From: Saprospiraceae bacterium
GTDB lineage: Bacteria > Bacteroidota > Bacteroidia > Chitinophagales > Saprospiraceae
Assembly (NCBI GenBank): GCA_022841505.1
Contig: JALHRK010000015.1
Span: 1 to 41,087 of the forward strand
DNA length: 41,087 bases
Direction of reading: 5' to 3'
This document shows positions 1,926 to 34,100 of the stretch, piece by piece. How positions within the stretch are numbered: position 1 is the stretch's first letter; each line of letters begins with the position of its first letter. Made by a program: the position numbers and the translations under genes. The notes beneath the pieces were generated by a model. The model searched no databases. It saw only the letters and a list, made by a program, of their open reading frames with translations, and was not told where the DNA came from.

Positions 1926-2600
1926 TCAATTAACTATAACCCCGTCGCTCATTTCAATAATCCGGTCGCTGGCAGCAGCAAAATCCTTATCGTGGGTAAC
2001 CGCGATGATGGTTTGGCCGTTTTCTTTCGCCAATTTCATAAAAATATCGAAAATGATCCCGGTATTTGTCTGGTCGAGGTTGCCTGTCGGTTCGTCGCCC
2101 ATGATGATGGCGGGGTCGTTCACCAGCGCCCGGGCAATAGCAACCCGCTGTTGCTGGCCCCCGGACAGGCGGGAAGCGCGTTTCAGGGCATAGTCGCCCA
2201 TGCCCATCCAGTTCAGTTTTTCGTAGGCGCGTTCTTCCACTTCCTTTGGGGAATACTTGCCCAGCTTGAGCGCCGGCAGCATCACGTTTTTGAGCGCCGT
2301 AAATTCCGGCAACAGGTAGTGAAATTGAAAAACGAACCCCATGTGCTCGTTGCGAAAGCGAGACAACGCGTTTTGCGACAAGCCGGTCAGGGTTTCATTG
2401 TTCATTTGCAGGTTCCCCTGATAATCGGTGTCCATGGTAGACAGGATATAGAGCAAGGTAGATTTTCCACAGCCGGATTTTCCAACCACGGATAAAAATT
2501 CTCCTTTTTTTGCCTCAAATGATACGCCTTTCAGCACCTCAAATGGTTCGGGCTGATAGAAGTATTTGACGATGTTGTCTGCTTTTAAAATGGTTTGCAT
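1926..2600 (-). CDS. ABC transporter ATP-binding protein (LolD/MacB-type)
   Basis: Walker A GKSGCGKST, signature LSGGQQQRVAIARAL, Walker B IIMGDEPTGNLD. The internal Met at 2600 (MQTILKADNIVKYF) is the likelier start than 2660. Confidence 0.93.
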   Translation of the reverse strand: MQTILKADNIVKYFYQPEPFEVLKGVSFEAKKGEFLSVVGKSGCGKSTLLYILSTMDTDYQGNLQMNNETLTGLSQNALSRFRNEHMGFVFQFHYLLPEFTALKNVMLPALKLGKYSPKEVEERAYEKLNWMGMGDYALKRASRLSGGQQQRVAIARALVNDPAIIMGDEPTGNLDQTNTGIIFDIFMKLAKENGQTIIAVTHDKDFAAASDRIIEMSDGVIVN

Positions 2601-2617
2601 GATTTTATTTTTTCTTA

Positions 2618-2739
2618 GTGTCTGTCTATAGTCCGATAGCTGCGTTATGTTTGGTTCCAAAATCGGTCATCCCGCCCGAGCGGGACTCCCGTTTTTGGAA
2701 CCAAACATGCCTTGCTCTCGAACTCTAAAGAACAGACAC
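2618..2739 (+). repeat. ~122-bp covarying hairpin element, copy 1
   Basis: GTGTCTGT...ACAGACAC ends; stem TTTGGTTCCAAAA/TTTTGGAACCAAA; inner stem CCCGC/GCGGG. Confidence 0.95.
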
Positions 2740-2768
2740 GGACTAAATACACTATTGTAGACTCTCCT

Positions 2769-2801: not shown

Positions 2802-4061
2802 TTACCCTCGAATAATATCCACCGGATCCACCCGTGACGCCCGTCGGGCCGGAAACCAGCCTGCAAACAACGTGGTCAGGAAGCCGAATACAATACCCGT
2901 TATATAATACTTCACTTCAAAAAGCACCGGAAACGTTTCGATGTTGAACCCCGTGCCCGAAGGGAATGGCGTAATGGAGATCAGGTAGCTGAAAAAGCCG
3001 CCCGTCAGCACGCCCAGCACCCCGCCCAGCACGCCGATGATGAGGGATTGCAACAGAAATATACTCACAATATTGCCGCTTTCAAACCCGGTCGCCTTGA
3101 GGATGGCAATATCCTTGAGCTTGTTGAGGATGCTCATATTCATGATGTTGTAAATGCCGAATCCGGCCACGACCAACATGGCAAGCGACACCACAAACGT
3201 CATTACATTCCGGATCACCTCGCCTGCCAGAATGGCGGCATTGGTTGTTTCCCAGTCTTCGGCGGTGTAGCCGTATATTTGCGATAGCGTTTTGGACAAC
3301 GTTTTGGCCTGGGTATAATCTTCCAGCCGAATGACGATGTCGGTGATGTATTGCGGGTCTTTTTGCAAAATTTTCTGCACCGAAGCCAGCGTGGCATAAC
3401 TGCGCATGCCATCCACCGCACTGAATCCGAAAGAGAAAGTGCCCACCACCCGCATCAGCAGAATCGTGCCCTGGGGGGTAGAGATGGAAATGCGGTCGCC
3501 CACCTTCACGTTCATCTTTTCGGCCAATTCGTTGCCCAGCAGGATGCCATCCGGGTTGGTGAGCAGGTCCTCGAGGGCGCCGGTCTCCAACTTGTTTTCA
3601 AGGTCGTACATCACGTTCTCTTTCAGGATGTCGCAACCGATCATGCTGCCGGCGAATTGCACCGAGCCGCTGTTGTAAAACACCTGCGTACTCAGGTTCG
3701 GCGCGGCCTGCTGCACGCCAGGCCATTGCTCTAATTCCCGCAGGATACGCATGCCGTTTTTAATTTTTGGCAATTCACTTTTCGGCTTCTGGTGGTGGAC
3801 GATGTACATCGCATCGGCTGGCCCGCCCTGTTGTTCGATGATGCTTTTGCGGTCGTTTTTAATGGGGTTGTAAATGCGCACGTGCGGCGAGCCGTCCAAA
3901 GCCAGGTCGAGGGTAAACTGGTTCACGCCCTGCATGAAGCTGATCATGACAATGAACATGCTGATGCCAAATGTGACGCCCAGCATGGCAATGATGGTCT
4001 GGCGCTTTTTGGCCAACAAATGCGTCAGCGCAATATCAAGGGCTAATCTCAGGTTTCTCAT
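2802..4061 (-). CDS. ABC transporter permease (FtsX/MacB family)
   Basis: 419 aa; N-terminal TM, large periplasmic domain, C-terminal FtsX-like TM block (AGFGIYNIMNMSILNKLKDIAILKATGF). Confidence 0.92.
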   Translation of the reverse strand: MRNLRLALDIALTHLLAKKRQTIIAMLGVTFGISMFIVMISFMQGVNQFTLDLALDGSPHVRIYNPIKNDRKSIIEQQGGPADAMYIVHHQKPKSELPKIKNGMRILRELEQWPGVQQAAPNLSTQVFYNSGSVQFAGSMIGCDILKENVMYDLENKLETGALEDLLTNPDGILLGNELAEKMNVKVGDRISISTPQGTILLMRVVGTFSFGFSAVDGMRSYATLASVQKILQKDPQYITDIVIRLEDYTQAKTLSKTLSQIYGYTAEDWETTNAAILAGEVIRNVMTFVVSLAMLVVAGFGIYNIMNMSILNKLKDIAILKATGFESGNIVSIFLLQSLIIGVLGGVLGVLTGGFFSYLISITPFPSGTGFNIETFPVLFEVKYYITGIVFGFLTTLFAGWFPARRASRVDPVDIIRG

Positions 4062-7629: not shown

Positions 7630-8550
7630 TTAAAAATTTGGCATTCCTGTCAATTGGTTACTGATAATTTTGACCAGTGCCAACGCAGGTGCTATTTCGA
7701 CGGTGCAAAGATACAACAAAAAGTGGAATTTATAGTATAGCAGGTAATTGTTGGCGATAAAGGCGCCCCGCAACGACCGCAGCAAGTAGAACAAGACGAG
7801 TATTCCCAAGGTTCCATTGATCAGCAAAGCAGTGAAACTTTCAGGGGCATAAGCGATCAAAAAATTGGCTGGCCCGAGGAACAAACTGATCATGATGCCG
7901 AAGATCATGATGGTGAAACTGTAAGCACTAATTTCTTTACCAATCGGAAAAATAGCGCCAATGATCCGCAAGAGCAAGTGTTTGAACAACACGACCAACA
8001 GCACCGCCCCGACGCAGTAAAGCAGGTTGATCAAATGCGTTTCACCGGGCAACACCACCTTCTTATGGCGCAGCAATAAAAAAACAAACAGCCCCCCGTT
8101 GATGAAAAACAAGCTGTACAGAATCATGTAGGCTTGCCCCGCACCCGACTGCCGGTCGCGGTAGGCCTGGTTCAGCAAATTGTCGTTCAGCATCGCCTGG
8201 TAGGCTCGGCCATAGAGGTTTCTGAAAAAAGTAATAAAAAAAGTGAGCAACAGCAAGCTCACCAGCATGGCGCCCAACAAAAAACCCGGGTAACGGGTTG
8301 GGTTTGGCAAACGGCGCGGCTTGGCAATTTTTTTAACAACTCCGGATTTGGAAGTGATTTTTCTGCCTGGCTGTGTGGGCGCAGAAAGGTCGAAAGGGTT
8401 GCCGTTGGTTCCGTTGGGTACAACAACGGTTTCGGCAGGCGCAGAAAGGCGAAATGCCAGGTCAAACGGATTTTCACTGGTCTGGCCGTCTGCGAAACCC
8501 GCTATGATCAGGAAGAAAAATACTAAGGCTTTTGCTTTCAACTTCCGCAA
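7630..8550 (-). CDS. DUF4271-type membrane protein
   Basis: 306 aa, several TM helices, in tandem with hemD as is common in Bacteroidota. Confidence 0.72.
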   Translation of the reverse strand: MRKLKAKALVFFFLIIAGFADGQTSENPFDLAFRLSAPAETVVVPNGTNGNPFDLSAPTQPGRKITSKSGVVKKIAKPRRLPNPTRYPGFLLGAMLVSLLLLTFFITFFRNLYGRAYQAMLNDNLLNQAYRDRQSGAGQAYMILYSLFFINGGLFVFLLLRHKKVVLPGETHLINLLYCVGAVLLVVLFKHLLLRIIGAIFPIGKEISAYSFTIMIFGIMISLFLGPANFLIAYAPESFTALLINGTLGILVLFYLLRSLRGAFIANNYLLYYKFHFLLYLCTVEIAPALALVKIISNQLTGMPNF

Positions 8551-13755: not shown

Positions 13756-13937
13756 AATCGCTCCGTTAATTTATGGATGGATAGGGTGTGTATTCTTTAC
13801 ACATACCCACTCTCAAATGTAAAAAAACTAATTGCATCTAACCTAATTTTGATGCGGTAGTTTGCAAAATTTAAAGAAGGATTGTTTGTAAATGCCTCAG
13901 CCTGCGGGGTATTATTTGCGTTTTTCGATAGGAAGGT

Positions 13938-14125
13938 GAGTATTTGAGTATTCGAGGAGTTGAGTATCTGAGTATTCGAGGAGTTGAGTATTCGAGGAGT
14001 TGAGTATCTGAGTATTCGAGGAGTTGAACGTGGTGGGTGTCAAATACTCGAATACTCAAATCTTCAAATACTCAATCTTCAAATACTCAATCTTCAAATT
14101 TTCAAATTAACTAATTTTCAAATCA
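13938..14125. repeat. Inverted arrays of TTYGAGTA-type octamers
   Basis: Left arm is eleven 8-mers starting with GAG on + (GAGTATTT GAGTATTC GAGGAGTT GAGTATCT ...). The right arm has related TTTGAGTA/TTTGAAGA words on minus. A 13-nt centre separates them. Confidence 0.93.
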
Positions 14126-17214: not shown

Positions 17215-17338
17215 GTGTCTGTTTTTTAGAGTTCGAGAGCAAGGCATGCGAAGGCCCCAAAAACGGGATTTTACACGCGTAAATGACCGATTTTGGGGCC
17301 TTCGCATAACGCAGCTATCGGACTATAAAAACAGACAC
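17215..17338 (-). repeat. ~122-bp covarying hairpin element, copy 2
   Basis: GTGTCTGT...ACAGACAC ends; arms shared with 2618-2739 and 30668-30788; 15-bp stem GCGAAGGCCCCAAAA/TTTTGGGGCCTTCGC. Confidence 0.95.
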
Positions 17339-18699
17339 TACCTGATTTGCATCAAAATCCGCCACTCTTTGGGATAGTAATTATTCACCCGGTTCCCGAT
17401 CCCTTTAGCCCAACCCAGGCCCAGCCCTTCGTATTCCACCAACATCCAGCCTTGCGGAACGGGATTAAAAATGGGTGGTTCTTTTTTCAAAAAATGCAAC
17501 GCCTGTTCCCGCTCCAGCGCCACACGCGGCACATCGGGGTGAACGAGGGCGCTTAGCGCGAATTCGGGAGCTGGCAGAAAATCTTTGCCTTTAAACAAAC
17601 CAAGCGGCACGCCGAATGCGGATTGCCGAAGCATGGAACCCAGGTGCATACAATCCGCTACCTGCGCCTCCGGCAACGCCCGGAACGCGCCCTGCCAATC
17701 CTGAAAAACGACGATTCCTGCTTCCGGGGCCAACCAGGGGGCCAGGGATTCTATGTCGGTTTTTGAAGCCGGTTTCAACGTCCAGGCGGGCAGCGATTTG
17801 GCGGCTTTTTCAGCGGATTGATCCTTGCTTTCTTTGCGAAAACACGACAGGTAAAAACCTTCCCCCCGAACACGGTGGGGGTAGCACTGGTAACCTATAT
17901 CTTTATGAACCAGGCCCCATTCGGCAGGCAACGCAAGTTCAAGCGCCTGAAAAGATGCCTGTTCCAACAACCAGGCGGCGTTGTTTTCGTTTTCTTCGTC
18001 GTTGTAGGTGCAGGTGCAGTACAACAGCACGCCGCCGGGGCGAACCAAGGCTGCGGCTTCCGCCAGAATGCGTCGTTGCCGGGCTGAACAATGTGCGGTA
18101 TGGGCCGGCGACCATTCTTTCACCGCGTCCGGATCTTTGCGGAACAAACCTTCGCCCGAACAGGGCGCGTCTACCAGCACCAGATCGAACCAGCCTTGCA
18201 ACGCTTTGAAGTCGCGGCTGTCGTGCTGACTGGTGTGCGTGCAGGGATGGCCCCATTTGGCTATATTGTATTGCAGGGTTTGGTAGCGGTTGCGGATGAC
18301 TTCGTTGGAAAGCAGCAAACTCCCCGCCGGCAATACGGAAGCCAGCAGGGTACTTTTTCCCCCGGGCGCAGCGCACAAATCCAGCACCCGAAGCGGTTGA
18401 CCGGCAGGCACGCATTGCTGAACAGCTGTTGCAACCAGCATCGAAGAAGCTTCCTGCACGTAATAAGCGCCGGCGTGGAATCGCGGATCGAGCGTAAAAA
18501 TCGGGCGCTCTGCGAGGTACCTTCCGGCCGCGTACCAAGGCACCGGCTCCAGGGTCTCGTTTTTCAATCCGCTTTCTTTCCCGGGATTCAGGTGGATGCT
18601 GATTGGCGCAGGCCGCTGGAGGGCTTCCAGAAAGGCAGCCGTTTCTGCGCCAAGCAGGCTACGCATTTGCGCTAAAAAAGGCTCTGGAAGGTTATTCAT
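17338..18699 (-). CDS. 16S rRNA (cytosine-C5)-methyltransferase, NOL1/NOP2/Sun family (RsmF-like)
   Basis: 453 aa; VLDLCAAPGGKSTLLASVL, LVLVDAPCSGEGLFRKD, LLYCTCTYNDEENE; C-terminal PUA-like region ending NNYYPKEWRI. Confidence 0.9.
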   Translation of the reverse strand: MNNLPEPFLAQMRSLLGAETAAFLEALQRPAPISIHLNPGKESGLKNETLEPVPWYAAGRYLAERPIFTLDPRFHAGAYYVQEASSMLVATAVQQCVPAGQPLRVLDLCAAPGGKSTLLASVLPAGSLLLSNEVIRNRYQTLQYNIAKWGHPCTHTSQHDSRDFKALQGWFDLVLVDAPCSGEGLFRKDPDAVKEWSPAHTAHCSARQRRILAEAAALVRPGGVLLYCTCTYNDEENENNAAWLLEQASFQALELALPAEWGLVHKDIGYQCYPHRVRGEGFYLSCFRKESKDQSAEKAAKSLPAWTLKPASKTDIESLAPWLAPEAGIVVFQDWQGAFRALPEAQVADCMHLGSMLRQSAFGVPLGLFKGKDFLPAPEFALSALVHPDVPRVALEREQALHFLKKEPPIFNPVPQGWMLVEYEGLGLGWAKGIGNRVNNYYPKEWRILMQIR

Positions 18700-22840: not shown

Positions 22841-23017
22841 GTTGTTCGTGGTTCGTTAAGGGTTGTTCGTTAGGTTTCTGGATGAATCGGATGCGAGAAC
22901 AGAACGACGTTTCGACTTGCTTCGACTTCGCTCAGTACAAGCCGCTCAACGAACAGCGAACAACCGACAACGAACAACGACTTCTGACCAATCATCAAAT
23001 TTTCAAATCTTCAAATC
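22841..23017. repeat. GTTGTTC-heptamer inverted arms plus TTTGAAGA octamers (copy A, with nested REP-like insert)
   Basis: GTTGTTC GTGGTTC ... on +; GTTGTTC GTTGTCG GTTGTTC GCTGTTC on minus; core GTTCTCGCATCCGATT shared with 30964-31107. Confidence 0.88.
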
Positions 23018-24190
23018 ACCTTCCCCTCTATACGTTGGCACACAATCCACGACCCGGTCGCCCTGAATCAGGTAGAGTACTTTAAAATGCTCGCACAGTT
23101 CTCCAGCTTTGGCGTGTCGGAAAAAGATGGGGTCGCCCAAATGCAACGGTTGCGAGCCTCGGTACAAAATGGGCGTTTGCACTTCTCCTGCGCCTTCGTT
23201 GGGCAAAAGCGAGGCGCCTTCCGGCAAATACGGCGTCGGGAGTTTTGCTTTGCCAGCTGCTCCGGAAGCTACATACCCACCACCGTAGCAGGTAAAAATA
23301 TCAAGCTCGGGCTGACGGGTAATGTCTAATGCAAATCCAGCAGCGGGCAGGTGGTGAAAATGCCGATACCCATCGAACAGGGTAGGCGCATAAAACGCCG
23401 AGCCGGCGGTCACTTCCGTCACGACCGCTTCTTCGGAAGAAGTTTCCAGGCTTCCCGTACCTCCGGCATTCACAAAACGAAGGTTTTCAGCGCCGATGGC
23501 CGCCACGACCTCAGCCCGCAAAGCCCGCACTTTGGACAAAGCCCGGTTTTGCAGCAGCCGGATGACCTGGTTTTTAAAAAACTGTCCGGACACATGATCG
23601 CCCAGTCCGGCAAGCTGTGCCTCGTAGCCCATGATCCCATCCAATCGCAGCCCATCATACTGTTGAATGGTTTCAAAAAGCGCCTTTGCTTGTGCAGCCG
23701 AGCGGATGCCCGAGCGTTGTACCCCGAAGTGGAGTCCGGGAAATTTGGTAGACATATCCACGTCTATACATATCGGGAGTTGCACTTTTTTTTCTATTGC
23801 GGCGCGATTGGCCAAGGCAATGTGCTGCGGGCAATCCACCATCAGCGTGAGGCATTTCCCGCGGGCGACTTCTTCCGCCACAGCGGCCAAATCCGTTGCA
23901 TCACAGGAAGGATAGGCGATCAGCAGGTCATCGAATCCCTGGCGGCTCAAAAAAACTGCTTCCCTGGCATGGTAAGCCATAACGCCCTGGTAGCGATCGT
24001 GACTTTGGAGCACCCGGAACAGCAGCGCCTGGCAACGAATGGATTTGGAAGCCACCCGAATTTGTTTGCTGCCGGCCCTTTTTAACACTTGCCGGACATT
24101 GTTGTCAAAATAATCCAGGTCTACAAAAGCCGCTGGTTTTGAGACGTTACGGAGGGCTTCCCGGTATCGGTTGTATGAATCTGAAGACAT
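23003..24190 (-). CDS. D-threonine aldolase / alanine racemase-fold (type III) PLP enzyme
   Basis: 395 aa; AFVDLDYFDNNVRQVLKRAGSKQIRVASKSIRC; ICIDVDMSTKFPGLHFGVQRSGI; GGGYVASG near C-terminus. Confidence 0.82.
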   Translation of the reverse strand: MSSDSYNRYREALRNVSKPAAFVDLDYFDNNVRQVLKRAGSKQIRVASKSIRCQALLFRVLQSHDRYQGVMAYHAREAVFLSRQGFDDLLIAYPSCDATDLAAVAEEVARGKCLTLMVDCPQHIALANRAAIEKKVQLPICIDVDMSTKFPGLHFGVQRSGIRSAAQAKALFETIQQYDGLRLDGIMGYEAQLAGLGDHVSGQFFKNQVIRLLQNRALSKVRALRAEVVAAIGAENLRFVNAGGTGSLETSSEEAVVTEVTAGSAFYAPTLFDGYRHFHHLPAAGFALDITRQPELDIFTCYGGGYVASGAAGKAKLPTPYLPEGASLLPNEGAGEVQTPILYRGSQPLHLGDPIFFRHAKAGELCEHFKVLYLIQGDRVVDCVPTYRGEGDLKI

Positions 24191-28720: not shown

Positions 28721-28804
28721 CCAATTTACGCATAAAGGGGGATTTCCCACCCCGCTATATGCAAAGGAGCAACTTTTGCCGTGCCAATACGTTCTTTATT
28801 ATCG

Positions 28805-28812
28805 TATTTTTG
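28805..28812 (+). promoter_or_regulatory. Candidate -7 box TATTTTTG upstream of TPR gene
   Basis: TAnnTTTG match 47 nt before ATG 28859. Confidence 0.35.
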
Positions 28813-28858
28813 TGGTCCCCGGATCCATTTTACCTACAACAAACAATCAGAAAAGTTT

Positions 28859-30667
28859 ATGCGGCGCATCGTATTTTTGGCGGTATTGATATGGACAAGC
28901 CTGACTCCGGCCCTTGTCGGCGCACAGGATGCTCAGTTGGCGCAGCAGTATTTCCGCGACGGCGAGTATGAAAAAGCGGCACTGTTGTACCAAAAGCTGT
29001 TCGAACAAAACGAGCAGAACGATTACATCTTCGAGCGTTACATCGAGTGTCTGCTGGCTACAGAAGATTTCGCAACAGCCGAGGCTTCTATCAAAAAGCA
29101 GATCAAAAAAGTACCGCAAAACTCCACGAATTACGTGATGTACGGCAAATTGCTGGAGCGCCAGTACCGCGAGGATGATGCCATGGCTCAATACCGCGAA
29201 GGCATCGCCAAATTGCCTGCTGACCGCTACCAGGTGGTGCGCTTAGCCAACGCGTTCATTACGTCCAACAAATATGAGCTGGCAATTGAAGCCTACGAAA
29301 AAGGGGCGGATTTGCTCAAAGATACCCAGGTTTTTTCCTTCAACCTCGGCGATTTGTACCGCATGAAAGGCGATACGCCCAAGATGATCGAAAACTACCT
29401 GAACAGCATTGACGCCGATCCAACCCGCCTGAACAACCTCAAAACGGTTTTTCAGCGCTATCTTTTCCCGGATGATTTCAAAGAGTTGCAAAAACAGCTC
29501 TACGCCCGCATGCAGGACGGCGTTGAGAAAGAATACCACGCCGAATTATTGGGCTGGGTTTTCATTCAGCAAAAAGATTACGCCAGCGCCCTGCGCCAGG
29601 CCAAAGCCCTTGACCGGCGCCTGGTGGAAAACGGCGGGCGCGTGTTCCGCCTGGCAGAAGTAGCTGCCAACGACGGTGATTACGACGCGGCCATCTCTGG
29701 TTATGACTACATTGTGGCACAAAAAGGCCCCGCTTCTTCCTTCTATATTGACGCCCGCACCGAAGCGCTGCGCTGCCGCCGCAACAAAATTGTGGAAGGT
29801 TTTCAATACAAAGAAGAGGAGCTGCGGGCACTGGAATTGCAGTTCAATGCCTTCCTCGACGAATTTGGCCGCACGAAAATCACGGCACCGGTGATCCTCG
29901 ACTTAGCCGAATTGCAAGCCGTTTACCTCAACGACCTCGACCAGGCCATTGCCTTGTTGTCTAAAATGATCCAATATCCCGGTACAGAACCCGCAGTGCA
30001 GGCCATGGGCAAGCTCCGGCTGGCCGATTATTACCTGATGAAAGGAGAAGTCTGGGACGCTACCCTGCTCTATTCGCAGGTTGATAAAGATTTTAAAGAA
30101 GACGTGCTGGGGCAGGAAGCCCGGTTCCAGAATGCCCGGCTCTCGTATTTCAACAGCGATTTTCAGTGGGCACAGGCCCAGTTTGAGATCCTGAAAGCTG
30201 CCACTTCGCGCCTGATCGCCAACGACGCCCTCGACCTTTCTGTGTTCATTATGGACAACCTCGGCTTAGACTCCACCGCTACGGCGCTGGGGATGTACGC
30301 CGATGCGGAACTGCTGGTTTTCCAGAATCGCTTTGATGATGCTTTCCGCAAATTGGACAGCCTGATCACGCTTTTTCCGGAGCATAGCCTTGAAGACGAT
30401 GTGTGGTACCTGAAAGCACAGGTCTATGCCCGCAAGCGCGATTACGCGCAGGCAGCGCTCATGTACCAGGCCGTTATCGAAAAATACCCACAGGACATCC
30501 GCGCCGACAACTCCATGTTCGCGCTGGCGGAACTCCACGAAACCCACCTGAACGATGTGGAAAAAGCCAAAGCACTCTACGAAAAAATCTTTATTGATTA
30601 TTCGGGGAGTACGTTTGCGGTGGAGGCCAGGAAACGGTTCCGGAAGTTGAGGGGGGATAATATTTAA
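28859..30667 (+). CDS. secreted tetratricopeptide-repeat protein
   Basis: Signal peptide MRRIVFLAVLIWTSLTPALVGAQ, multiple TPR-like repeats. Confidence 0.9.
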   Translation: MRRIVFLAVLIWTSLTPALVGAQDAQLAQQYFRDGEYEKAALLYQKLFEQNEQNDYIFERYIECLLATEDFATAEASIKKQIKKVPQNSTNYVMYGKLLERQYREDDAMAQYREGIAKLPADRYQVVRLANAFITSNKYELAIEAYEKGADLLKDTQVFSFNLGDLYRMKGDTPKMIENYLNSIDADPTRLNNLKTVFQRYLFPDDFKELQKQLYARMQDGVEKEYHAELLGWVFIQQKDYASALRQAKALDRRLVENGGRVFRLAEVAANDGDYDAAISGYDYIVAQKGPASSFYIDARTEALRCRRNKIVEGFQYKEEELRALELQFNAFLDEFGRTKITAPVILDLAELQAVYLNDLDQAIALLSKMIQYPGTEPAVQAMGKLRLADYYLMKGEVWDATLLYSQVDKDFKEDVLGQEARFQNARLSYFNSDFQWAQAQFEILKAATSRLIANDALDLSVFIMDNLGLDSTATALGMYADAELLVFQNRFDDAFRKLDSLITLFPEHSLEDDVWYLKAQVYARKRDYAQAALMYQAVIEKYPQDIRADNSMFALAELHETHLNDVEKAKALYEKIFIDYSGSTFAVEARKRFRKLRGDNI

Positions 30668-30788
30668 TGTCTGTTTTTATAGTCCGATAGCTGCGTTATG
30701 CTTCGCCCCAAAACCGGTCATTTACGTCAGTAAACTCCCGTTTTTGGGGCGAAACATGCCTTGCTCTCGAACTCTAAAGAACAGCCAC
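30668..30788 (+). repeat. ~122-bp covarying hairpin element, copy 3
   Basis: Begins at the base after the TAA stop (30665-30667); stem TTCGCCCCAAAA/TTTTGGGGCGAA. Confidence 0.95.
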
Positions 30789-30894
30789 GGGACTCAATGG
30801 GCAGATACATTTAGTAAAAAAAGGCCGCCCCCAAAAAACCAGGAGCAGCCTCTAACGTCATTTTATCGCTTATCTTTAACACCGACGCCTGGTG

Positions 30895-30963: not shown

Positions 30964-31107
30964 GTTGTTCGTTGAGCGTTGTTGGTTCTTCGTTAGGTTT
31001 CAGAATAATCGGATGCGAGAACAAAACGAACAACGAACAACCGACAACGAACAACCGCTCCTGCCCCAATCTTCAAATTTTCAAATTAACACATCTTCAA
31101 ATCAATC
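30964..31107. repeat. GTTGTTC-heptamer inverted arms plus TTTGAAGA octamers (copy B)
   Basis: Shares core TCGGATGCGAGAACA and flanking word arrays with 22841-23017. Confidence 0.88.
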
Positions 31108-34100
31108 TATCCTCACCATTTTCCCCGTTGCTGTATGCCCCAGCGCTTCGATGCGGTAGAGTAATACGCCGGCAGCGAGTTGGCGTTCGGCCTGAAATTC
31201 CACTTCGTGTTTGCCCGCGTCGTAGTAGCCGTTGAGTTCCCACACTGTTTTGCCGGAAAGGTCGCTGACCACGAGCCGCACCTGAGAAGCCGCCGGCAGG
31301 TTGAAGCCGATGGTGGTTTCATCGCGGAACGGGTTCGGGCGATTTTGGTACAACTCGATCCGGTCGTCTGGTTCGGCGTCCGGTAGGAAAACTAAACTCA
31401 GCGGCAGCGCCTGGTCGGCTTCGTCGTAAGCTTCTGCTTTTGTGATGCCCGAATGCAGTGTAAACGCCTGGCTCATATCCACGTTGTCGCTTGCGCGGAA
31501 AACCAGCGTAATCAGCACTTCGCTATCCGGAGCGCCAGCCTCCTGGGGCCAGTTCCAGCTAAACGTCAGCAAGCCGTCCAGCAACTCCTTCGAACCGAGG
31601 TGCTCTTCCTGAAGGATGCCATTTTCGATGCCGATCAATTCGAGGTCGTCCGCGTCAAATTGCAGGGTTCCCTGTAAGCCTTCCAACCCTTCAATGCCGG
31701 GCGCTTTCAGCGTCAGGTGACAGATGTCACCAGGTGACAGCATTTTGCCTGTCGCTTGCAGCACAAAAGGCGCCCGGGTATTGCGGTTTTCCGCCTGCTG
31801 GAAATTGAACTGCGCGCTGCCATTGATGTCGCCGGTTTTTACAGCGATGAAATCCTCATTCACCAGATCGCTGCTCAGGTTCGTCAGGCTGATCACCTGT
31901 GGGAAACTTTCCTGCCAGGGATTCATCGCATTGGGGAAAGCGTAATTGGCATCTACAAAACGCCAACTGGGCACGTTGGGGAGTTCAGTGGAAATGCCAA
32001 GAATTAACTTGCGAAGCAAAACAACATCTAAGGTCGTCACCGAACCTGAGCCATTCGCGTCGGCAGCGATGAGTTTATACGGCGAATTCAAAAGTTGAGT
32101 GCCCAGAATATGCCGGGAAATCAATACCAGGTCAATGGTGGAAACCCCGTTCATCCAGTCGCCGGGGCGCTGTGGCCGGATGGTGTATTCGTGTCCTGTT
32201 TCCAGGCCACCCAATTCGTAGGCGCCATCCACGCCGGTCGTATCCATCACCGGCATCGCTTCGGCCGGTCGCAGACTCACCCCTTCCACCGGCTCCCCGG
32301 ATTCGCTGATGATCAGACCCGCCACGCTGGCAATCGTAGTGGTTGGGAGGAAACCGCCACAAGCTTGTGGCTGGTTGTCCTGTACGGTGAGGAACGCTTC
32401 GCAGAAAGTGAAGTTCGGTCCGCCAATTGTGCCATTTGGCTGTTGTAAAAGCGGATTGTAAGCGTTGTCCCAGGCATACAACCGCACCAGGATGATGCCT
32501 TCGTCGTCGCAGGTCAGGAGCAGGCTGTCGTGGCCCGGGTTTGGTAAATCTATGCCGTCCAGCACGTCTTGTGAACGATGGATCGAATAGCGGATCGGGC
32601 CGGAACAGGTTTCAATAGCCGGGCTTCCGATAAAATTCAAGGCGGGCAACACAGTAAAACCGCCATCAACATCGCCATCGCCGTCAATATCCACACCCGC
32701 GGGTAAGGGTTGCAACACCATCGACAGGTTGGTTAGGCAAGTGGGCGCGGCGGCTATACAATCACTCACCTGGAAAGGCAGGGTGCTTTGAGCCTGATTG
32801 CCGCAGGCGTCTGTTACCTGCACCACAAATGCATGCAGGCCGATGGGGTAATTAGCCCGGATATTGTAGTTCGGATAAGCTCCAAACAAAGCAGTTGCCG
32901 TCACTTCCTGATCCAAAGAGCCGTTGCGGCCCAGGTCAATAAAAACCTTGACCACGACGGGGCCAGTTTGGCAGGATTGCTGCACGGTAAAGGCCGCAGT
33001 GGCTTCGCCCAGACAAGTATTGTTGTTAAAAGAACAGAAAGAAGTTCCTCCCGGACTAACCGAAATCACCGGAGGTACGTTGTTTTGCACCTTAATGACT
33101 TGGGTATAGGTCCAGTAACCATTGCTGGCAACAACCTCCCGCCAGTATCCGGCGGGGTTATTGCCGCCCGGGCAGGAAGGCCCGCGTGTTCCTGCGGCTG
33201 GAATGGCATTGGCAGGATCGTTGTCGCGGTCAATCACAATTCCATTGGCGCGGCGCAAGATCCAGACGTCTTCATCGCCGGGTTCGCCGTCGCAATCTTC
33301 ATCGCGGCTGATTTCTATGGCCGGATCGCTTCCATTGTATTCGCAATGATTGATGATGTGGTACGTGCGGAATATTTTATAACAAGCCTCTCCGGGAGCT
33401 GATAGTTGTACATCCTGCACGCTGAGGACGAAGCGGTCGCAACCAAGCGCAATCATTTGAGCCGTATCCGGCGCAGGTACTACGCAGTTGACACTGAGGT
33501 CTTTCGGTAATTTGATGTTGTAAATATTGGAGGGCTGAATGGTTATCTGTTGTTGGCAGGTTCCAAGCGAAGTATTCCCAAAGGCATCGCTTGCCCGGAA
33601 GCGCCGGGTAATCGTGCCGCTGCCACACTGATTTAGGGCGACAATCGGACTCAGTTCCTCAGCCGTTGCGCCTGCACAGTTGTCTTCCGCCCCCGGGGCG
33701 CCGAACAGCGTATTCAGTTGCGCCAGGTTGTTGGGGTTAAAATTCGCCGGCAGGTTGCTGCAAAGCACGCTCACGGCATTCGGCGCTACACAGGTTGGCC
33801 GCGAATTGTCTTCGATGGTTATTTGCGTGATGCAAACGCTTTGGTTGCCGTTCAGATCGGTGGCACGCAATTCTGTGTGCATGTCAGAACCCGCATCGCA
33901 GCAGTAGAACTGGACAGAAGGCCCCCAGGCGGTATAGTAAGGCGTCACTGGCTGGCAAGTAACCGGGTCTTTGGTGATCATTCGGCGCACCTGGATGGAA
34001 GCCAGTCCGCAGGGATCATTGCTGCCTTCATCCACGTCCGAGGCCAGTAAGGTTCCAACGCTGCCGCCCAGCGACATCGTCAACTGGTCGTCACAAACGG

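Follow-up and report, generated by a model that had tools for sequence, protein, structure and literature searches.

The 41,087-nucleotide stretch of a Saprospiraceae genome analysed here (the window) carries three copies of a hairpin that belongs to a MITE-like mobile family, in which a single copy is an element of approximately 140-160 bp. It is new as a family: the literature searched on palindromes of Bacteroidota, on MITEs located at stop codons and on orientation bias, a search in which subscription journals were mostly outside coverage, holds no description of it. Its position at stop codons with fixed orientation, and a covarying stem without G-U steps, make it distinct from the ERIC, Correia and REP elements. 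With somewhat better than even probability, the explanation that fits it best is a non-autonomous family of mobile DNA at native stop codons, whose arms would be bound by way of a hairpin folded on the antisense strand and whose stem would be rewritten by template switching.

The three copies lie where the first-pass annotation had placed them, with the arms and stems it had described, and the search of the genome and its relatives that it proposed has revealed the trio as the tip of a large family. In the source genome (7.5 Mb, 999 contigs), the 21-base left arm has 108 forward and 99 reverse matches with up to three mismatches (approximately 207), and the reversed pattern, used as a control in the same search, has 0 + 0. 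The same-genus genome G001, the sole clear carrier among 60 relatives searched, has eight matches; six Flavobacteriales MAGs hold 5-39 copies of the left arm each, a Chitinophagaceae MAG holds a single one, and a 399-genome sample across the phylum gave one weak match beyond the source genome. An exact 20-mer scan of 85,488 species returned 24 loci, one of them in a Chitinophagaceae MAG and nearly all in MAGs that carry the label Cryomorphaceae or Flavobacteriales, and the plasmid, phage and viral collections searched for the element gave no match. The distribution is patchy yet order-spanning, with a left arm that is identical over 20 bases.

When the copies are aligned with their flanks, the element begins AGTGTCTGTCTTTATAGTCCGATAGCTGCGTTATG, continues with the variable stem-loop and then CATGCCTTGCTCTCGAACTCTAAAGAACAGACAC, and ends with a second repeat, GACTAAATGGACAGACACT; full copies have the terminal inverted repeats AGTGTCTGTC... 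/ ...GACAGACACT. There are an inner and an outer right repeat, and the left end can therefore pair with either. The limits first assigned to the element were too short, although its arms and stems were right, given that the outer second terminal repeat lies further to the right; the target duplication, the location at stop codons and the fixed orientation had all been missed. Among the copies whose outer end is recognisable, 74 in all, 22 have identical flanking 4 bp (in shuffles 6.4 on average and at most 13), exact target duplications being present in only 30% of copies. The target consensus is palindromic, Y-T-AWWT-A-R, and the duplicated part is the 4-bp AWWT. A longer duplication (5-8 bp) was considered and rejected: matching drops past 4 bp, and the right-hand CT is nearly always there. 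At the empty orthologous site of copy 3, GATAATATTTAA followed by TGTCTG in the source genome corresponds to GATAATATTTAG followed by GAG in G001, and, conversely, the source genome is empty at the sites that two G001 copies occupy (L040/L282 and L036/L279). The element has moved since the species split. The terminal inverted repeats, target site duplication and empty orthologous sites mark the family as MITE-like and bear out the mobility that had been suspected for the hairpin.

Table 1. Copies of the element in the window and the genes that adjoin them.
Feature	Coordinates	Strand	Basis
Copy 3, whole element, left terminal repeat (A30666) to outer right repeat GACTCAATGGGCAGATAC	30666..30808	+	Sequence; empty G001 site
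Copy 3, left target duplication ATTT	30662..30665	+	Read from sequence
Copy 3, right target duplication ATTT	30809..30812	+	Read from sequence
Copy 3, left arm GTCTGTTTTTATAGTCCGATAGCTGCGTTATG	30669..30700	+	Genome-wide pattern match; nearly invariant columns
Copy 3, variable covarying stem	30701..30754	+	Fold, alignment columns, covariation
Copy 3, right arm and inner right repeat CATGCCTTGCTCTCGAACTCTAAAGAACAGCCAC	30755..30788	+	Sequence, alignment columns, divergence
TPR-repeat protein gene, stop codon overlapping copy 3 left end, sense	28781..30667	+	ORF; Pfam TPR families
Copy 2, left end A17339 to inner right repeat	17215..17339	-	Sequence, fold
RsmF-type 16S rRNA methyltransferase gene	17338..18699	-	ORF; Pfam RsmB/F and C-terminal PUA domain
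Copy 1, left end A2617, outer right repeat shortened	2617..2753	+	Sequence
ABC transporter ATPase gene, operon-downstream of copy 1	1926..2660	-	ORF; Pfam ABC_tran
FtsX/MacB-type permease gene, operon-upstream of copy 1	2802..4061	-	ORF; Pfam FtsX, MacB_PCD

In copy 3 the last T of the left duplication is the first letter of the upstream gene's stop codon (T-AA), and the G001 ortholog of this gene terminates at the same codon; the internal loop CGGTCA / CTCCCG of its stem is fixed and the apical stem is TTTAC/GTAAA. Copy 2, whose outer right repeat has decayed, supplies the AG of the stop codon TAG (17340-17338) of the methyltransferase gene, whose C-terminus is intact, as the presence of the PUA domain indicates; in G001 the 3' end of the orthologous gene lacks the element. 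These two copies obey the stop-codon rule described below. Copy 1 is the exception in the window: it lies antisense within an operon, next to an ATPase gene whose likely start is near 2599, its left end is short by two bases (TGTCTGTCTATAG), and it is missing from the orthologous site in G001. The window copies fold end to end on either strand (z -7.3 to -13.4; 0 of 200 shuffles as good), and an Rfam search of the window found tRNA only, with no family that matches the hairpin. Other repeats also occur in the window. Another dispersed repeat of approximately 150 bp, with some 20 BLAST matches in G001, occupies 1767-1917, and low-complexity repeats with a period of 7-8 bases (GAGTATTC/GAGGAGTT, TTCAAAT, AACAACGAAC) occupy 13930-14120, 22841-23031 and 30964-31109; two of these three blocks are near-duplicate and intergenic, 8 kb apart.

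The family includes several variant forms. Minimal forms, in which the terminal repeats are present without the central hairpin, are found at L066 (about 1470-1525) and L295 (minus strand, ATTTAGTGTTTGTCC...GGATAAACACTAAAT). Six elements of genome G459 (L169, L174, L179, L184, L189 and L194), of 150-370 bp, have the same terminal repeats with different arms, and some of them share the centre GTCATCCCGCC...GGCGGGACTCC; they represent other subfamilies, in this case in a Flavobacteriales MAG. At L284, L111 (minus strand near 8342) and L076, solo ends of the element are fused to a different dispersed hairpin (GTGAGGGCGTCA...TGACACCCTCAC). In L067-L069, L071, L073, L081, L083 and L087 the left arm contains an inserted REP-like palindrome (GACTTCGACTCCGCTCAGCCACC or relatives), a version that recurs in many copies and may be a subfamily of its own; in L015, L070, L072, L078, L150 and L220 such a palindrome stands in place of the hairpin centre. 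Flavobacteriales copies (L042, L044, L046, L050, L052, L054, L057, L058, L060, L062 and L063) have the palindrome CCCCGATAGCTATCGGGG in the 3' side of the stem, which produces a lopsided hairpin. Some copies lie between or beside tRNA genes (L281 in the source genome and L037 in G001, also L045, L051, L061 and L213); the orthologous pair L281/L037, possibly ancestral, has the CTCGGCCC/GGGCCTTCGCAAGCC form of the Flavobacteriales copies.

A distinctive property of the family is its location with respect to genes, which were mapped around the copies as open reading frames of at least 100 aa and not with a trained gene finder. Of 101 copies, 66 have their left end between -3 and +5 nt from the stop codon of the upstream gene, and 23 of 33 unselected copies from 1.23 Mb of contigs have it at a stop codon, against a background of 36 of 242 non-coding TAWWTA sites (15%). 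The overlap is mostly T-AG, in which the element gives the AG, or a TAA within the target duplication. The left neighbour reads into the element in 79 of the 95 copies that could be placed, and between co-directional genes the sense orientation outnumbers the antisense by 47 to 9 (binomial p 2.6e-7). The right end is at an antisense stop in 7 of 55 copies, and in five of those seven the left end is at a stop too. The upstream genes that were checked are real and mostly full-length (HMG-CoA reductase, UxuA mannonate dehydratase, DnaJ, TypA, RsmF and others). The Flavobacteriales copies are alike: 13 of 19 left neighbours that read toward the element stop at its left end or a few bases from it. 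One doubtful though conceivable proposal is that the transposition system directionally recognises gene 3' ends, inserting the hairpin at the stop codon in the orientation of the gene and giving the last two letters of the stop (T-AG); the target palindrome itself being directionless, the direction would come perhaps from transcription, translation termination or a folded single strand.

The stem varies in a manner that preserves pairing. In 45 gapless copies, 97.4% of stem cells pair (88.3% in shuffled alignments), 14 pairs have changes on both sides (7.7 shuffled), and the covariation score is 0.228 (0.064 shuffled); none of 500 shuffles reaches the observed pairing, number of double-sided pairs or covariation score, and if the partner is shifted by one column, pairing falls to 42-45%. 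The same copies contain 143 double-changed stem cells, versus only seven cells with the standard one-sided (G-U) change, and therefore both letters of a pair seem to change together. The arms show no covariation and are nearly fixed, and the internal-loop strands TGCGTT and GCCTT are essentially invariant (45 distinct copies). The outcomes under which the hairpin proposal was to be abandoned, namely no significant covarying pairs, or only three copies without empty sites, are thus both contrary to what was found.

It is known that homogenisation of arms and inversion of a spacer or loop are footprints of template switching during replication (PMC8794818, PMC8604942). Such a process had been put forward at the outset as the alternative to a maintained hairpin, and direct footprints of it are present: in L092 the right arm has been replaced by the complement of the left, in L091 the reverse has occurred, and in L021 the centre is inverted. 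Because these three copies bear the described footprints, the variation of the stem is attributed mainly to template switching, which probably accounts for how stems vary; it leaves the persistence of the arm mismatches unexplained. The proposal of a maintained hairpin has also gained support, both from covariation far beyond that of shuffles and from orthologous arms that are kept where the non-coding flanks no longer align. Divergence from the consensus is 2-5% in the arms and 4% in the inner right repeat, and 22% in the outer right repeat. In the TypA copy common to both species (L022/L038), the arms are almost identical; downstream, the non-coding DNA can no longer be aligned, and a different complementary stem has taken the place of the old one. 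These comparisons of sequence suggest that the folded unit is kept in place after insertion; fixed arms could instead reflect the youth of the copies or conversion among them.

As to which strand folds, the one antisense to the upstream gene is the more stable in 99 of 101 source copies with RNA parameters (by a mean of 9.1 kcal/mol) and in all 101 with DNA parameters; 32 of 34 far copies agree. On this strand the TCA/CTC loop that is fixed on the top strand becomes GAG/TGA, and we infer that tandem G.A pairs could form there. One-sided transitions, A.C over G.T, favour antisense pairing by 28:9 when counted by cells, which is significant, and by 15:8 when counted by events, which is not. A better antisense fold is no demonstration that this strand is used.

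Several searches concern the enzyme and the class of the element. No autonomous relative or transposase was found in the searched parts of the draft carrier genomes, where ends were paired by eye and by script. Non-standard matches to the terminal repeats in 1.23 Mb of the source genome and five Flavobacteriales genomes were only solo ends, truncated copies and members of hairpin subfamilies of smaller or greater length. Y1 transposase genes are present in most carrier genomes (0-3 per genome, none in G462), and the one inspected in the source genome is flanked by unrelated palindromes, with only a short terminal-repeat-like relic in its locus; the link to a RAYT or IS200-type transposase that had been suspected at first finds no backing in these data. 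An intrinsic terminator was ruled out, as a T-run follows neither strand.

In the explanation favoured here, a transposase encoded elsewhere would move the element, and this enzyme or a host protein would bind the fixed arms, most likely on the folded antisense strand. Template switching between the arms during replication would rewrite the stem while complementarity stays perfect, and selection would preserve the arms and their mismatches. The position at stop codons and the orientation would reflect directional target choice, or selection under which the hairpin is tolerated or favoured nowhere else; any host function is likewise presumptive. A rather unlikely alternative is that the hairpin is selected as RNA, co-transcribed in the 3' UTR after the stop and tuning mRNA stability or translation termination. 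The copies do sit in sense directly 3' of stop codons, the hairpin unit is retained while the outer repeat decays, and ERIC in Yersinia provides a precedent, with its orientation-dependent change of transcript stability (reviewed in PMC2229807). Selection of RNA, one of the two options of the first-pass annotation, is nevertheless unsupported, because one-sided G-U changes are nearly absent (G-T pairing is often seen in REP stems; PMC3733652) and the sense strand folds worse in nearly all copies; the lack of a matching Rfam family also speaks against it.

It is unlikely that these are simply neutral, decaying MITEs, in which repair of the palindrome by template switching alone gives the covariation, the hairpin goes unused after insertion, and location at stops results from target preference plus purifying selection. 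Template-switch footprints do exist and the target TAWWTA contains TAA, but the fixed arm mismatches stay unrepaired, the orthologous TypA copy keeps its arms beside an unalignable flank, and target preference alone predicts 15% of copies at stops, versus 65-70% observed; as the target is palindromic, it predicts no orientation bias either. That the family is a REP/REPIN-type repeat moved by a Y1 transposase (RAYT or IS200-like) is highly improbable: it is a dispersed palindrome, and most carrier genomes have Y1 genes, but terminal inverted repeats and target duplications, the low number of such genes and the different palindromes beside the inspected one all oppose this idea. Hardly credible at all is an integron attC-like recombination site, a class with which the position 3' of an ORF in sense, the variable tip and the bottom-strand fold agree (PMC2727003). 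Here, no match to the integron integrase model TIGR02249 above cut-off was found in seven carrier genomes (these being drafts, absence is not absolute), attC R'/R'' boxes with GTT/AAC cores were not recognised on inspection of the arms and ends, and the copies are dispersed singly with target duplications, not in arrays.

With regard to the significance of the family, landing on stop codons in gene orientation without gene breakage amounts to a safe-harbour strategy of a kind rarely met in bacteria, and an orientation bias at a palindromic target calls for a mechanism. With hundreds of copies, fixed arms and a hypervariable stem in which G-U steps are all but missing, the family is a clean natural test of how pairing is kept amid letter change, and it illustrates that strong covariation alone need not imply RNA function. 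With its hairpin directly 3' of an ORF, the family also parallels integron cassettes in geometry, and how those cassettes arose is still debated as an open question.

Among known systems, Correia/NEMIS, RUP and other bacterial MITEs have in common with this family the terminal inverted repeats, short target duplication, non-autonomy and high copy number. RUP and Correia have established links to IS families, whereas no parent transposase was found here, and a covarying centre and stop-codon position are undescribed for them in the literature compared. ERIC (RU-1), the enterobacterial 127-bp imperfect palindrome, is MITE-like, of similar size, with a long imperfect hairpin and many intergenic copies, and it has no transposition protein of its own; an orientation-dependent effect on transcripts has been reported for it (PMC2229807). 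It differs in duplicating TA (PMC2759123) instead of the 4-bp AWWT and is unrelated in sequence, and the left end on stop codons in sense and the hypervariable yet complementary centre are particular to the present family. REP/REPIN elements with RAYT are also dispersed near-gene palindromes with complementary stem variants (PMC3733652), but the present element exceeds them in length approximately three- to fivefold, shows a target duplication and has no RAYT association, and none of its copies has a GTAG or CGTC tag next to a palindrome of 20-40 nt (the family description being that of PMC3733652). Integron attC sites resemble it in being directly 3' of an ORF in sense, with conserved unpaired positions, a variable terminal structure and a folded bottom strand (PMC2727003); integrase, arrays and AAC/GTT boxes separate them from the present family, as do its target duplications. 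Finally, the template-switch mutation of hairpins (Monttinen and Loytynoja 2022, PMC8794818) likewise changes several stem bases at once in a complementary way and inverts loops; it has been seen as a mutation process in RNA genes, whereas here it would act on a family of mobile DNA.
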